From Dyadobacter fermentans DSM 18053 (GTDB lineage: Bacteria > Bacteroidota > Bacteroidia > Cytophagales > Spirosomataceae): DNA of 64,000 bases. The first letter of the stretch is position 1, and each line of letters begins with the position of its first letter. The notes under the pieces are model-generated. The model was not told the origin of the DNA. It did not search any database and saw only the letters and a program-made list of their open reading frames with translations. Shown here in pieces: positions 52,162 through 58,089 of this stretch. The translations under genes and the position numbers were made by a program. The stretch covers positions 1,426,001 through 1,490,000 of the forward strand of contig NC_013037.1 in NCBI RefSeq assembly GCF_000023125.1. Direction: 5' to 3'.

Positions 52162-53544
52162 ATGAGACATTACGACGCTATTGTAATCGGCGCAGGGCAA
52201 GCCGGCACGCCGCTTTGCCGCAAACTGGCTGAATCGGGTTTAAAAACTGCATTAATTGAAAAAAGATGGGTCGGCGGGACCTGCGTCAACGGCGGCTGCT
52301 CCCCTACCAAGGCTATGATCGCCTCCGCCAAAGCCGCCTGGTCGGCAAGGCACAACGAGGCCCTCGGCGTGAGCGTGGGCGGCATTACCATCGATTTCGA
52401 AGACATCATCGAGCGCAAAAACCGCATTGTGCAAATGATGCGCGACAATTCCGAAAAGCGCATCCGCGAAACCGCCGGCCTCGATCTTATTTACGGCACG
52501 GCACGTTTTAGCGGTCGAAAGGAGATAACCGTTACACTAACAGACGGCAGCAGCGAGACACTCATCGCCGATAAATTCTTCCTCAACAACGGTGTCCAGC
52601 CCGTCATTCCCGACATCGAAGGCATTCAAACCATCCCCTACCTCACTTCCACCACCATCATGCAGCTGGATGAGATTCCAGAGCATTTGCTGATCCTCGG
52701 CAGCGGGTACATTGCATTGGAATTCGGCCAGATGTTCGCACGGTTCGGCAGCAAAGTAACGCTCATCGAGCGCTCGGAGCGGATTTTGAAGAAGGAGGAC
52801 AAAGACATTACCGAGGAAATCGCCAAAATTCTCGCCCAGGAAAGCATTGAAATACTCACGAACACCGAGGCCACGGGCTTTTCAAAAAACGGGCATATTA
52901 TAAGTGTGACACTCGAAACAAATGGCCGGAAAAGTCAGCGGTCGTGTACGCATGTGCTCGTGGCGGCCGGGCGCAAGCCGCAGCTCCGCGAATTCGGCCT
53001 GGAAACGGCCGGTGTGGAAGCAGATGAAAAAGGGTATATCAAAGTAAACGACCAGCTCGAAACCTCGGCAGAGGGCATTTATGCATTGGGCGACGTCAAA
53101 GGCGGCCCCGCATTCACGCATGTTTCGTACGACGATTACCGGTTGATCATCCAAAAGGTGGTTGAGAAAAAGCAAATCAGCATCGCCGACCGCCTGATCC
53201 CATATTGCATTTTCACAGATCCGCAGCTCGGGCGAGTGGGCATGACCGAACAGCAGGCACGCGAAAAAGGGATTGACATCAAAGTGGCTGTCCTGAAAAA
53301 CGACAGCGTTGCGCGTTCCATTGAAACCGGGGACGAACGCGGCATGATGAAAGCCATTGTGGATGCGAAAACAGGGCAGATCCTGGGCGCCGCGGTGCTG
53401 GCCGAAGAAGGCGGAGAAGTGATCACGGTCCTGCAAATGGCCATGATCGGCAATATTACCTACGACCGCCTCATGAACGGCATATTCGCGCACCCGACGT
53501 ACTCGGAGTCGCTGAACAACCTGTTCATGTCGCTCGAAGGATAG
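52162..53544 (+). CDS. FAD-dependent pyridine nucleotide-disulfide oxidoreductase (class I)
   Basis: A 460-residue flavoenzyme of the lipoamide dehydrogenase/glutathione reductase/mercuric reductase group. FAD site AIVIGAGQAGTPLCRKL, redox-active disulfide in GGTCVNGGCSPTKAM (CxxxxC), NAD site ILGSGYIALEFGQMFA, second FAD site GIYALGDVKGGPAFTH and C-terminal dimer domain with ANLMTYDR-like NITYDRLMNGIFAHPTYSE. It lacks the N-terminal metal-binding domain and terminal Cys pair of true MerA, so a mercuric reductase label would be unsupported. Its disulfide substrate is unknown. It lies 113 bp before the betaine-type transporter and may belong to the same locus. Confidence 0.9.
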   Translation: MRHYDAIVIGAGQAGTPLCRKLAESGLKTALIEKRWVGGTCVNGGCSPTKAMIASAKAAWSARHNEALGVSVGGITIDFEDIIERKNRIVQMMRDNSEKRIRETAGLDLIYGTARFSGRKEITVTLTDGSSETLIADKFFLNNGVQPVIPDIEGIQTIPYLTSTTIMQLDEIPEHLLILGSGYIALEFGQMFARFGSKVTLIERSERILKKEDKDITEEIAKILAQESIEILTNTEATGFSKNGHIISVTLETNGRKSQRSCTHVLVAAGRKPQLREFGLETAGVEADEKGYIKVNDQLETSAEGIYALGDVKGGPAFTHVSYDDYRLIIQKVVEKKQISIADRLIPYCIFTDPQLGRVGMTEQQAREKGIDIKVAVLKNDSVARSIETGDERGMMKAIVDAKTGQILGAAVLAEEGGEVITVLQMAMIGNITYDRLMNGIFAHPTYSESLNNLFMSLEG

Positions 53545-53657: not shown

Positions 53658-54419
53658 ATGATCATTGCCGACCAAATCAGTAAACATTTCGATGGTGTAG
53701 AAGCCGTTACAGATGTTTCCTTCCGGGTCGGCGAGGGTGAAACGATGGTGTTGCTGGGCACCAGCGGCTGCGGCAAGACGACGACGCTCAAAATGCTCAA
53801 CCGGCTGATCGAAGCTACTTCCGGCCGGATTGAAATTGGTGGAAAAAACATCACCGAAGAAAAGCCGGAGATACTGCGCCGGTCAATCGGCTATGTGTCG
53901 CAAAACAATGGCCTGTTCCCGCATTATACTGTTGCAGAGAACATTGCAGTGGTGCCCAGGCTGCTCAACTGGCAGTCGGGCCACATTCAGGAGCATACTG
54001 CACGCTGGCTCGAACAGCTGAAACTGCCTGCGCATTTCACCGGTAAATATCCCGCCGAGCTGAGCGGCGGCCAGCAGCAGCGTGTGGCCATTGCCCGCGC
54101 GCTCATTGCCAATCCGCCCGTCCTGCTCCTCGACGAGCCTTTCGGCGCACTCGATCCGGTGACACGCACCAGCGTCCGGAAGGATTTTGCCGAACTTCCG
54201 GCATTACAGCAGACAACCATCGTCCTCGTCACCCACGACGTGCAGGAAGCGCTGCAAATGGGCGACCATATTTGCCTGATGGACAAGGGCCGCGTTGTGC
54301 AGCAAGGCACGCCGGGCGACCTGCTGCTCCGGCCTGTGAATGAGTTTGTACACGCATTCATCGGCCAGCAGGTGGCCGATATTTCCCGTATTTACGAACG
54401 CATCAAAGCACAGGAATAA
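53658..54419 (+). CDS. Betaine-family ABC transporter ATP-binding protein (candidate ergothioneine/hercynine type)
   Basis: A 253-residue ATPase. Walker A is LGTSGCGKTTTLKML, the signature LSGGQQQRVAIARALI, Walker B LLLDEPFGALDPVTRTSV, and the H-loop VTHDVQEALQMG. Pattern matches the OpuBA/OpuCA group, but there is no C-terminal CBS regulatory pair. Its stop overlaps the first base of the permease fusion (TAATG). Together with the fusion and egtB-egtD it seems to form one operon; known ergothioneine importers (EgtUV of Helicobacter and pneumococcus, from memory) have the same architecture, so this substrate is a reasonable inference. Confidence 0.9.
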   Translation: MIIADQISKHFDGVEAVTDVSFRVGEGETMVLLGTSGCGKTTTLKMLNRLIEATSGRIEIGGKNITEEKPEILRRSIGYVSQNNGLFPHYTVAENIAVVPRLLNWQSGHIQEHTARWLEQLKLPAHFTGKYPAELSGGQQQRVAIARALIANPPVLLLDEPFGALDPVTRTSVRKDFAELPALQQTTIVLVTHDVQEALQMGDHICLMDKGRVVQQGTPGDLLLRPVNEFVHAFIGQQVADISRIYERIKAQE

Positions 54420-55996
54420 TGGAGGAGCAGCAAACCTTATGGGCCTTTATGGCGCAGCAATCGGGCAAGCTGTGGAGCCAAACCCTGGCCCACATCGGCC
54501 TCACGTGCATTTCGCTGCTCATCGCCATTGCCATTGGCTTACCGCTCGGCATCTGGATCGCACGGCGGCAGAAGGCCGCCTGGCTGGTACTCGGCGTGGC
54601 GGGCATTCTGCAAACGATCCCCAGCATTGCATTGCTCGGTTTTATGATCCCGCTGCTGGGCATAGGCGCATTGCCTGCGATTACGGCCTTGTTTTTGTAT
54701 GCATTACTGCCCATTATCCGCAATACTTACACGGGCATTACGGGCGTCGACCCGGCCATTACCGAATCGGCGCGGGGTATGGGCATGAGCGCCTGGCAGA
54801 TACTGACGGGCGTGGAACTGCCGCTGGCGATGCCAGTAATCCTGGCGGGTATCCGCACGGCCACGGTCATCAATGTAGGCGTGGCGACGTTGGCGGCATA
54901 CATCGCGGCGGGCGGCTTGGGCGAGTTTATTTTCGGCGGCATTGCATTGAACAACACGCAAATGATCCTCGCCGGGGCCATTCCGGCAGCATTGCTGGCC
55001 ATTCTGCTGGACTTTTTGTTGTCATTACTTCAAAAGATGCGCTTGAAGAAAATGCGCAAAGTGTCCGTCGTGCTGCCTGTATTATTGCTGCTGCTTTCCT
55101 CTTTTTACCTCATCCCCTATACAAAAGGTAACCTGCTTGCCGGCTTCACGCCGGAATTTATGGGCCGCGAGGATGGTTATCTAGGTTTGAAATCCAGATA
55201 CGGCCTCGATATCCCGACGGTCGTGATCAGCGACGCGGTGATGTATAAGGCCGCATTTGAACAAAAGCTCGACGTTATCAGCGGGTATAGCACCGATGGC
55301 CGGCTTAAAGCATTCGACCTGATGACGCTCGACGACGATCAGCACATTTTTCCGCCTTACTATGCGGCGCCGGTCGTGCGGCAGGAGGTTTTAAGTCAAT
55401 ACCCTGAATTGCAGCCGGTTCTGGAACAATTATCAGGCTATATCAATGACTCGGTCATGACGGAGCTGAATTACCGGGTGGATTACCTGAAACAAGCGCC
55501 GGAACGTGTGGCGCACGATTTCCTGGTGTCCAAAGATCTTTACCAACCGCCGCGGAACGGCAACAAGGGGACAATTCGCCTCGGTTCCAAGATTTTTGCG
55601 GAGCAATATATTTTAATACAAATGTACAAAGAGCTGATCGAGGGGAATACCGAGCTCAAAGCGGCTACGAAAACCGGCCTGGGCGGCACCAAAATCTGCT
55701 TCGACGCATTGAGTAATGGCGAAATCGATATGTACCCCGAATACACCGGAACCGGCCTGCTGGCCATCCTGAAACCAGGCCGGGCGCAACTGAAAAGCCT
55801 TGGCGGCGACCGGGAGGAGGTTTATGAGTATGTCAAAAACGAATTTCTGGAACGGTACCGGCTGCAATGGCTGCGGCCGATCGGCTTTAATAATGCCTAC
55901 GCGCTGATGATGCGCCGCGCGCAGGCACAATCCTTGAACATCCAATCCATCACCGACCTAAAAAACTATGCAACTAATGGAAACCACCGGCATTAG
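54419..55996 (+). CDS. ABC transporter permease/substrate-binding fusion with circularly permuted binding domain
   Basis: A 525-residue protein. Residues 1-232 are an OpuB-type permease with five or six membrane helices (EAA loop ESARGMGMSAWQILTGVELP). The remainder is an OpuAC-type betaine-binding domain in unusual order. Residues 237-375 (AGFTPEFMGREDGYLGLKSR, ISGYSTDGRLKAFDL, HIFPPYYAAPVV, MTELNYRVD) normally form the second half; residues 386-517 (IRLGSKIFAEQYILIQMYKE, GEIDMYPEYTGTGLL, ITDLKNYA) normally come first. The two are joined by QPPRNGNKGT. The break lies at KNYA-T(K/N)GN, which appears at both ends. The last 29 bases overlap egtB. Substrate is likely a trimethylammonium compound such as ergothioneine. 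Confidence 0.88.
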   Translation: MEEQQTLWAFMAQQSGKLWSQTLAHIGLTCISLLIAIAIGLPLGIWIARRQKAAWLVLGVAGILQTIPSIALLGFMIPLLGIGALPAITALFLYALLPIIRNTYTGITGVDPAITESARGMGMSAWQILTGVELPLAMPVILAGIRTATVINVGVATLAAYIAAGGLGEFIFGGIALNNTQMILAGAIPAALLAILLDFLLSLLQKMRLKKMRKVSVVLPVLLLLLSSFYLIPYTKGNLLAGFTPEFMGREDGYLGLKSRYGLDIPTVVISDAVMYKAAFEQKLDVISGYSTDGRLKAFDLMTLDDDQHIFPPYYAAPVVRQEVLSQYPELQPVLEQLSGYINDSVMTELNYRVDYLKQAPERVAHDFLVSKDLYQPPRNGNKGTIRLGSKIFAEQYILIQMYKELIEGNTELKAATKTGLGGTKICFDALSNGEIDMYPEYTGTGLLAILKPGRAQLKSLGGDREEVYEYVKNEFLERYRLQWLRPIGFNNAYALMMRRAQAQSLNIQSITDLKNYATNGNHRH

Positions 55997-57134
55997 GGAA
56001 GCATTTCACAATGTCAGAAAACACACGGAATACATTTGCGAGCCGCTCGAAACGGAAGATTACGTGCCGCAGCCGGTCGCATTTGTGAGCCCGCCGAAAT
56101 GGCACCTCGCGCATTCCACCTGGTTTTTTGAAACCTTCATCCTCAAACCCAATGTACCCGGCTATCGGATGTACGATCCCGATTTCAACTATTTGTTCAA
56201 CAGCTACTATAATAATGTAGGCGAGCGCAGCCTCCGCACCGATCGCGGGAACGTGACACGCCCGACCACCAAGGCCGTGTACGCCTACCGCCAATATGTG
56301 GATGAGCAAATGGACGCATTTCTCGAAGATCTCACCGATCCGGACATCCTGGCATTGGTCGAACTCGGGCTGCACCACGAGCAACAGCACCAGGAACTGC
56401 TCGTGACCGACATCAAATACATTCTCGGCCACAACCCGCTCTTCCCCGTTTACCGCGAAGGCCAGAATATGGTGAGCGGCCGCAATACCGAAACCGGCTT
56501 TTTAACCATTCCTGAGGGCATCTACGACATCGGGCACCAGGGCGAAGGTTTCTGCTTCGACAACGAACTCGGCCGGCACAAGGTATACCTGCACGAATTC
56601 GAAATCGCGAAAGGACTCGTCACCAATAAAGAATACCTCGCATTTATGGAAGCCGGGGGTTATCAGGATTTCAACCTTTGGCTGGATGAAGGCTGGTCTT
56701 GGGTAAATGAAAACCACATTTCAGCACCAATGTACTGGCACCGGATCGGCGGCGAATGGCATTACTTTACATTAAACGGGTTGCGAAAAGTCGATCCCGA
56801 CGCCATTCTGAGCCATGTCAGCTATTTCGAAGCCGCTGCATTTGCTCAGTGGAAAGGCATGCGACTACCGACCGAATTTGAATGGGAAATTGCCGCCGCT
56901 AACCTCGACTGGGGCCAGCGGTGGGAATGGACCAACAGCGCCTACCTGCCCTATCCTGGATTCTCGAAAGCGCCGGGCGCCGTGGGCGAGTACAATGGCA
57001 AGTTTATGGTGAACCAGATGGTGCTCCGCGGCGCGTCCGTAGCGACCTCGCCGGGGCACGCCCGCAAAACATACCGCAATTTTTTTCACACACACGAGCG
57101 CTGGCAATACACAGGTATCCGCCTCGCGCAATAA
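55968..57134 (+). CDS. egtB: Ergothioneine biosynthesis sulfoxide synthase EgtB
   Basis: A 388-residue non-haem iron enzyme that joins hercynine with a thiol (gamma-glutamyl-cysteine or cysteine) to give a sulfoxide. The N-terminal DinB-like domain has HLAHSTWFFETFIL and HHEQQHQELL; iron ligands by homology are His49, His137 and His141. The C-terminal half is an FGE-sulfatase-type domain (GEGFCFDNELGRHKVYL, MRLPTEFEWEIAAANLDWGQ, VLRGASVATSPGHARKTYRN). Which thiol is used cannot be decided here. It overlaps the transporter fusion by 29 bases (20 if ATG 55977 is used) and precedes egtD by 10 bases. Confidence 0.93.
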   Translation: MQLMETTGIREAFHNVRKHTEYICEPLETEDYVPQPVAFVSPPKWHLAHSTWFFETFILKPNVPGYRMYDPDFNYLFNSYYNNVGERSLRTDRGNVTRPTTKAVYAYRQYVDEQMDAFLEDLTDPDILALVELGLHHEQQHQELLVTDIKYILGHNPLFPVYREGQNMVSGRNTETGFLTIPEGIYDIGHQGEGFCFDNELGRHKVYLHEFEIAKGLVTNKEYLAFMEAGGYQDFNLWLDEGWSWVNENHISAPMYWHRIGGEWHYFTLNGLRKVDPDAILSHVSYFEAAAFAQWKGMRLPTEFEWEIAAANLDWGQRWEWTNSAYLPYPGFSKAPGAVGEYNGKFMVNQMVLRGASVATSPGHARKTYRNFFHTHERWQYTGIRLAQ

Positions 57135-57144
57135 ACAATGGATC

Positions 57145-58089
57145 ATGACAGAGTTACAAACTTTTGCCCGCGACATCCACAAAGGACTGTCGGCGCCCCG
57201 GAAACACATTTCGAGCAAATACTTTTACGACGACATCGGTAGCGGCATTTTCCAGGACATTATGAAAATGCCGGAATACTACCCTACCCCTTGCGAATTC
57301 GAGATTTTATCGCTGCAAGGTGATAATATCATTCAAAAACTGGCATTCGACAGGCCGTTCCAGATCGTGGAATTTGGTGCCGGCGACGGCATTAAAACGC
57401 GCCAGCTGCTGAAAAAGCTCATCGAGCGGCAAGTGGATTTCACTTACGTCCCCATCGACATTTCCGCGAAGGCGATCGAGGAACTGACGGGCAATATGCT
57501 CGGCCATTTGCCTGGGTTGAAAATCCGGCCGATGATCGGGAATTACTTTTCGATGATGGAAGAGCTGGCCGCGTCGGGCGTTCCGAGCCTGCTGCTTTTT
57601 CTCGGCGGCAACATCGGCAACTACGAAGCGCATGAGGTCACGAGCCTCCTCACCGATTTCCGCAAATGCATGAATCCGGGCGATTACCTGCTCACCGGGT
57701 TCGACTTGCAGAAAAACCCCGCCACCGTCCGCTGCGCATACGACGACCCGAAAGGCATTACCAAAGCATTCAACATCAACCTGTTGCACCGGATCAACCG
57801 CGAGCTGGGCGGAACTTTCAAAACCAATCAGTTCGATTTTTACTCACATTATAACCCTGTAAATGGCGAAGTAAGGAGCTACCTGGTGAGCCTTGTGCCG
57901 CAAAAAGTACACATCCGGCACACGGACAAATGCTACGATTTTGAACGGAATGAATTGATATGGACCGAGTTATCCCAAAAATACACGCTCACGGGCATTG
58001 AGAAAATTGCGGAGGCCAACGGCTTCCGCGTCGTGGAGCATTTCCAGGATTGCAAGGCTTATTTTACCGATAGCTTGTGGACATTATAA
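57145..58089 (+). CDS. egtD: L-histidine N-alpha-methyltransferase EgtD
   Basis: A 314-residue SAM-dependent enzyme that trimethylates histidine to hercynine, the first step of ergothioneine synthesis. Signatures: HISSKYFYDDIGSGIFQDI near the start, PEYYPTPCEFEIL, the SAM site VEFGAGDGIKTRQLLKKL, VPIDISAKAIEEL and LLFLGGNIGNYE. It is the last gene of the cluster, ended by a strong terminator. No egtA, egtC or egtE is present in the window; the C-S lyase needed after EgtB must be encoded elsewhere. Confidence 0.95.
   Translation: MTELQTFARDIHKGLSAPRKHISSKYFYDDIGSGIFQDIMKMPEYYPTPCEFEILSLQGDNIIQKLAFDRPFQIVEFGAGDGIKTRQLLKKLIERQVDFTYVPIDISAKAIEELTGNMLGHLPGLKIRPMIGNYFSMMEELAASGVPSLLLFLGGNIGNYEAHEVTSLLTDFRKCMNPGDYLLTGFDLQKNPATVRCAYDDPKGITKAFNINLLHRINRELGGTFKTNQFDFYSHYNPVNGEVRSYLVSLVPQKVHIRHTDKCYDFERNELIWTELSQKYTLTGIEKIAEANGFRVVEHFQDCKAYFTDSLWTL

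Follow-up and report, generated by a model that had tools for sequence, protein, structure and literature searches.

A circularly permuted OpuAC-type binding domain fused to its permease beside predicted ergothioneine genes in Dyadobacter fermentans

Can the binding domain of an ATP-binding cassette (ABC) importer be fused to its permease with its two halves in reverse order, and if so, how did such a protein arise and what does it carry? The question is raised by one gene in a 64,000-nucleotide stretch of the Dyadobacter fermentans DSM 18053 genome (NC_013037.1, positions 1,426,001 to 1,490,000; hereafter the window, in whose numbering all coordinates are given). The gene lies at 54419-55996 on the forward strand and encodes 525 residues in one open frame, a permease part followed by a PF04069 OpuAC-type binding domain. 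A sequence-only reading had proposed that this domain is a circular permutant, and the open reading frame (ORF), coordinates and motifs are as it described them. The parts of the gene are:

54419..55111, forward strand: permease part, from PF00528 (residues 40-213, 85.4 bits), hydropathy and model helices
55127..55543, forward strand: first segment of the permuted binding domain (H2, residues 237-375; normally the C-terminal half), matching PF04069 115-255 and SpEgtUC chain 136-274
55544..55567, forward strand: linker of about 8 residues between the old C-terminal and N-terminal ends, the gap between the BLAST-aligned halves
55568..55972, forward strand: second segment of the permuted binding domain (H1, residues 384-518; normally the N-terminal half), matching PF04069 2-128 and SpEgtUC chain 7-134, with pocket residues
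55973..55996, forward strand: C-terminal tail TNGNHRH and stop codon, overlapping the start of egtB, from comparison of the two reading frames

PF04069 matched the ORF as two stretches with 193.1 bits in total (curated cut-off 21.2). The best stretch paired residues 239-369 with profile positions 115-255 and the one downstream of it covered positions 2-128, so that linear order is not kept. Scored singly, the halves reached 103 and 94.7 bits, each above the cut-off. A phmmer comparison with the solved EgtUC of Streptococcus pneumoniae (SpEgtUC, 9egi) likewise placed residues 236-374 on chain 136-274 and residues 385-516 on chain 7-134. Precomputed Pfam lists name just the two domains, so the swap stays hidden in them.

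As a control on order, a profile made from 34 unpermuted relatives was run on 54 permuted loci, the window included and not all independent. The native window domain split into two matches of 137.1 and 133.7 bits, their profile positions in falling order, while the same domain with its halves swapped matched as a single stretch of 280.5 bits. All 54 loci did the same, with a median of 137.5 bits for the best native stretch and 277.6 bits for the single stretch after swapping. The 34 unpermuted domains, which are the profile's own training set, gave one stretch in native order and two once swapped. The binding domain is thus confirmed as a natural circular permutant of the PF04069 OpuAC family, as the sequence-only reading had claimed: it has no linear match natively, swapping restores one continuous match, and the structure model and phylogeny described below bear this out.

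To learn how common the permuted order is, we surveyed related genomes. The nearest named relatives are from Dyadobacter, seven of them at 90-94% identity. Among 19 named loci, all 14 from Bacteroidota have the permuted order and the 5 from Bacillota are unpermuted. In a sample of 296 genomes from the phylum the domain was matched in 38, as one continuous (permuted) match in 15 and in two parts in 23. The permease, H2 and H1 lie within one ORF in all 15, and in all 23 Bacteroidota genomes with the two-part match a single ORF has the unpermuted domain at its N-terminus with the permease after it. This N-terminal architecture (L057-L079) also occurs in one ORF on a Gemmatirosa plasmid (L105, Gemmatimonadota). 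The best 60 of 394 plasmid records match in two pieces, a pattern that alone does not give the order; none of the six records opened had the permuted order, all being unpermuted. A third arrangement is found in four Enterococcus loci (L016-L018, L020), where a single ORF encodes the permease, then the first half, then the second.

Within the order, 41 of 194 sampled genomes were matched: 38 continuously, one by a broken copy (G387), one by an N-terminal form (G146) and one by a marginal partial match (G416, E 8.6e-4). The copy in G387 is permuted and has six in-frame stops; it is probably decaying. Loci were obtained for 30 of the 38 continuous matches, the remaining eight resting on the continuous match alone. 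One of these 30 (L086) is without a permease at a contig end and another (L103) has the permease in a different frame. Five of the 38 matches hold one or two stop codons. In three the stop is a natural end, since an ORF check found them whole; the other two (G321, G437) lie outside that check.

Three database searches returned 332 proteins: in 329 the permease is followed by the second half and then the first, and the other 3 have two permeases in front. Each list is the best 120 of about 8000 scored proteins, so counts are lower bounds, and because the hits are the best ones of permuted queries they show spread and not prevalence. The source names, as written by the sources and in several cases those of metagenome assemblies, include Dyadobacter, Segetibacter, Adhaeribacter, Fodinibius, Balneolaceae, KSB1, Aminicenantes, Scalinduaceae, Thermodesulfobacteriota and Cyanobacteria (Myxosarcina, Baaleninema, Geitlerinema). 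The rearrangement is old and widespread. The three proteins with two permeases (P0088, P0181 and P0192; 788, 805 and 779 residues) carry tandem permease domains followed, in the same chain, by one permuted binding domain, a layout that would mean one binding domain per permease pair. On the tree, P0192 is separate from P0088 and P0181.

What the protein carries is a question for its neighbours, which include predicted genes for synthesis of the antioxidant ergothioneine, and for its pocket. The genes around it are:

52162..53544, forward strand: FAD/NAD(P)H disulfide oxidoreductase-like gene, the first of the cluster; best NCBIfam match NF004992 (FAD-containing oxidoreductase), 494.8 bits, under the cut-off of 629
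53658..54419, forward strand: ABC ATPase of the importer, ProV-like; PF00005 136.7 bits, and TIGR01186 proV 273.8 bits, under the cut-off of 326.6
55977..57134, forward strand: egtB, ergothioneine biosynthesis enzyme; TIGR03440 542.4 bits, cut-off 360; the start at 55977 is our choice, 55968 being possible too
57145..58089, forward strand: egtD, histidine N-alpha-methyltransferase; PF10017 322.8 bits, above cut-off, and TIGR03438 275 bits, slightly below the cut-off of 290.9

The oxidoreductase, ATPase, fusion, egtB and egtD genes all run in the same direction. The fusion gene starts on the last base of the ATPase stop codon, a one-base overlap, and itself overlaps egtB by 20 bases. Having a cognate permease and an ATPase as overlapping partners, the system belongs with the betaine-group type I ABC importers. 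No second PF04069 match was found at E 1e-3 in the source genome (a single contig of 6.97 Mb). The ORF probably encodes the subunit that unites permease and binding domain, the latter circularly permuted, in a type I ABC importer whose substrate is a carboxylate-bearing quaternary ammonium compound.

Both egtB and egtD adjoin the gene in all 14 named permuted loci (10 Dyadobacter, 3 Siphonobacter, 1 Mucilaginibacter). The phylum sample has 14 permuted loci besides the window; 9 of them carry both genes within the fetched stretch, as do 4 of the 23 N-terminal loci. TIGR03440 gave some match in 228 of the 296 genomes, in 81 of them above the cut-off; counting just those 81, EgtB is encoded in 33 of 38 genomes with the transporter vs 48 of 258 without it (Fisher p 1.6e-16, uncorrected for kinship). 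By form, EgtB is encoded in 14 of the 15 permuted genomes and in 19 of the 23 with the N-terminal architecture. Because of the egtB overlap and this co-occurrence, gene context makes ergothioneine or hercynine the likeliest ligand, by what we judge a modest balance of probability; otherwise the ligand would be glycine betaine or a similar osmolyte. In 19 of 28 permuted loci (13 of 14 named, 6 of 14 from the phylum sample) the oxidoreductase-like gene precedes the transporter, and a remote relative (27-28% identity) is near the transporter in three of four Enterococcus loci. One may speculate that it acts on an ergothioneine-related disulfide.

We compared the pocket with the ligand contacts of EgtUC listed in PMC9732360, with EgtUC numbering (chain number plus 229) set by the phmmer alignment and the residues named there. 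The window keeps K242, I243, T275, T296, N339, Y341, E375, R379, Y419 and Y443, and has G for T274. Taken as marks of EgtU membership beside the specificity residues, the nine contacts other than I243 are all present in the window, and many are common to the wider family. All 54 permuted loci keep K242, T275, T296, N339, Y341, E375 and Y443; Y419 is found in 51 (F in the other 3), R379 in 49 (M in the other 5) and I243 in 44. At the positions that mark EgtU specificity, G244, F293 and Y337, the window has F, Y and F. Position 244 is F in 52 of 54 permuted loci (Q in 2), 293 is Y in all 54 and 337 is F in all 54; the 24 N-terminal forms also have F, Y, F. Of six C-terminal unpermuted fusions, four each have G at 244, F at 293 and Y at 337, the EgtU pattern. 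The betaine cage is intact and is AfProX-like (F, Y, F), not EgtU-like, and by the criteria of PMC9732360 these residues exclude filing the protein as EgtU proper.

The protein could instead be a plain osmoprotectant importer for glycine betaine or a similar compound, with the same anatomy and with the ergothioneine genes as incidental neighbours, a reading we hold possible rather than probable. The all-tyrosine AfProX-type cage with its two near-invariant F residues would fit it, and according to PMC9732360 relatives that lack the EgtU marks may be less specific or have other quaternary amines as ligands. Moreover, 4 of the 14 permuted loci of the phylum sample have neither egtB nor egtD in the fetched stretch. 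Against it stand the overlap with egtB, the adjoining egtB and egtD in every named permuted locus (10 of the 14 being from Dyadobacter) and the co-occurrence with EgtB, which extends to the N-terminal architecture. According to the same paper, relatives from H. pylori take up ergothioneine at lower affinity.

A structure model of the binding domain is confident (pLDDT 92.1, pTM 0.88). Of 42 non-redundant loci, L091, L096 and L103 were left out of the alignment for this model, and 49 database proteins were hand-picked for the full-length model. The sequence-only reading had also proposed superposition on EgtU and ProX. The model aligned end to end with Bacillus subtilis OpuAC at 15-16% identity, its best linear structural match; with EgtUC the alignment spans one half, at 40-41% identity, and with AfProX a whole-domain match came at a root-mean-square deviation (rmsd) of 9 to 11, the range of all Foldseek rows spanning the whole domain for unpermuted OpuBC, AfProX and YehZ. 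No EgtU or OpuC-type chain is among the best 50 VIA rows listed, as expected of an aligner that preserves order, and their absence is therefore no evidence of another fold.

The permease part has five core transmembrane helices and a sixth, anchoring helix (about 209-231), all predicted; the model helices are predicted at residues 15-49, 51-66, 84-108, 125-164, 180-206 and 209-231. The cut falls at about residue 364 in EgtUC numbering, within lobe D2 (residues 341-432; PMC9732360), and the former ends are both in D1. The chain therefore runs D2b, D1b, linker, D1a, D2a, with D1 continuous and D2 split. Predicted helix 6 passes to D2 in about ten residues, and to D1 in the usual fusion; the linker of Lactococcus lactis OpuA has 11 residues (PMC11065425). 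The gap between the aligned halves, about 8 residues in the window, ranges from 8 to 18 across 52 permuted loci. Four other permuted proteins (P0256, P0259, P0267, P0270) have about 70 to 80 residues there, and in P0256, the only one of them read, the insert is apparently of low complexity. The N-terminal unpermuted form seemingly begins with a signal-like segment and ends with the five core helices (L060 alone), which would explain the need for a sixth helix in the C-terminal fusions. In the window protein, the ligand would close the two lobes as in a normal bilobed trap, the domain being suspended from helix 6 via D2 rather than D1. The loaded domain would then dock on the permease, with ATP powering import via the ATPase encoded upstream.

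A dimeric importer is to be expected and the linker is short, so the two segments could in principle pair between chains, each permease subunit of the dimer supplying one of them. Such a domain swap is very improbable given the confident single-chain model and the end-to-end match with OpuAC structures of the same order.

We also examined whether the permutation arose once. In a tree of the concatenated permease and reordered domain, built from 37 loci and 18 proteins hand-chosen for spread, the 36 permuted rows fall on one side of a branch with 99/97 support vs 19 others, and this clade was recovered in 99% of 200 bootstrap trees. The precedent that the sequence-only reading invoked for betaine-binding proteins is B. 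subtilis OpuAC (2B4L), which has the same order and an equivalent cut (PMC2395249). This shared order, the equivalent cut after the SIxDLK helix and the best linear structural match might suggest that both proteins inherited one event, which we consider very improbable. Both halves of the window domain lie near EgtU/OpuC-type proteins of unpermuted order, and the 35 sequence matches at E 1e-3 do not include B. subtilis OpuAC. Forcing the two into one clade costs 170 log units and is rejected under the model used (approximately unbiased (AU) test, p 3e-51; long branches present). The equivalent loop has therefore been cut twice, in two subfamilies.

As to route, the usual one is plausible: an ancestor with its permease first would have duplicated the binding domain in tandem and then lost the outer halves. 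The sequence-only reading had taken the short repeat T(K/N)GN at both breakpoints as the scar of such a trimmed duplication, a claim that the relatives do not support. Both copies occur in just 2 of 40 aligned permuted domains (the window and L007); L002, L003 and L008 have a single copy, and all carriers are Dyadobacter. The C-terminal tails differ beyond close Dyadobacter relatives, other rows ending in unrelated short tails, and the bases of the NGNHRH tail, read in the other frame, begin egtB (METTGIREAF). Since the motif is rarely paired in relatives and its C-terminal copy runs into the egtB overlap, the scar is unsupported, and on these alignments the pair is not ancestral. A repeat search of the gene listed one family of 14-base repeats, none at the breakpoints.

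The permease, H2 and H1 are all under purifying selection, with dN/dS of 0.036-0.063 in three Dyadobacter pairs (dS high throughout). A misassembly, frameshift or decaying gene, for which the window offers nothing and other genomes only the broken copy in G387, can be dismissed, because other assemblies show the same order, all 14 named Bacteroidota loci included, and the gene in the window is one open frame under this selection.

A more tentative reading, possible rather than probable, is that the OpuAC-fold loop was cut twice independently, and that the single old event seen in the window founded a multi-phylum, ergothioneine-linked clade in which the domain hangs by its other lobe. Several observations weigh against the main reading, that of an importer subunit with a permuted domain, a single origin and, by gene context, an ergothioneine-related ligand. 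Besides the missing EgtU marks, which weaken the ergothioneine assignment, and the four loci without egtB and egtD nearby, one phylum-sample locus has egtD only (G081), in a genome with no EgtB over the cut-off; the four encode EgtB elsewhere. A permease-only tree (L086, L103 and L108 left out) requires two changes, has one permuted clade in 38% of bootstraps and does not resolve a single origin, and a domain-only tree supports the clade at 62/89. The 332 database proteins, which are the best hits of permuted queries, include no duplicated intermediate such as PM-H1-H2-H1. The full-length model (pTM 0.63) does not fix the placement of the domains, and in a fourth Dyadobacter pair (L008) dN/dS is 0.039 for the permease, 0.100 for H1 and saturated for H2.

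The kind of system is already known, a tethered betaine-family importer, and so is circular permutation in OpuAC and, in another fold, MglB-2. Archaeoglobus fulgidus ProX and B. subtilis OpuAC are separate binding proteins that are not fused to a permease, and natural circular permutations have mostly been met as isolated structure pairs. Like the window protein, EgtU (EgtUBC, S. pneumoniae SPD_1642; 7TXL, 9EGI) joins a permease with six predicted helices to a C-terminal binding domain in one chain (PMC9732360), although its order is unpermuted and the specificity positions differ; the paper describes SpEgtU homologues as nearly exclusive to Firmicutes. B. subtilis OpuAC (2B4L, 2B4M) has the same permutation but belongs to another subfamily and arose independently. 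L. lactis OpuA (7AHC) has a permease with an anchoring helix and a tethered C-terminal binding domain (PMC11065425), unpermuted and of another subfamily. A. fulgidus ProX (1SW2) shares the tyrosine cage, with F at the Y337 and G244 positions (PMC9732360), but is unpermuted, its first half matching at the chain start. MglB-2 of Treponema pallidum, a membrane-tethered binding protein, is likewise circularly permuted in nature; it is of a different family with a sugar-binding type I fold, and its authors suggest tethering as a possible reason for the permutation (PMC4990184). In the available part of PMC2861598 we found no word of a permutation. Literature searches, to which subscription journals were mostly closed, returned no description of the permuted fusion clade, and we do not claim its absence from print.

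Here a single permutation event has a place on a tree, at least 329 database proteins of several phyla carry it, and it recurs independently at an equivalent loop in a solved relative. Because the unpermuted domain also occurs both before and after the permease, natural proteins allow a test of how topology affects tethering and delivery. If the tentative reading of two cuts and a domain hung by its other lobe is true, the permutation would have changed the geometry of tethering and not ligand binding, and the permuted, N-terminal and C-terminal unpermuted fusions would be three natural wirings of one transporter. Given the link to ergothioneine genes, some Bacteroidota may import such compounds as well as produce them.
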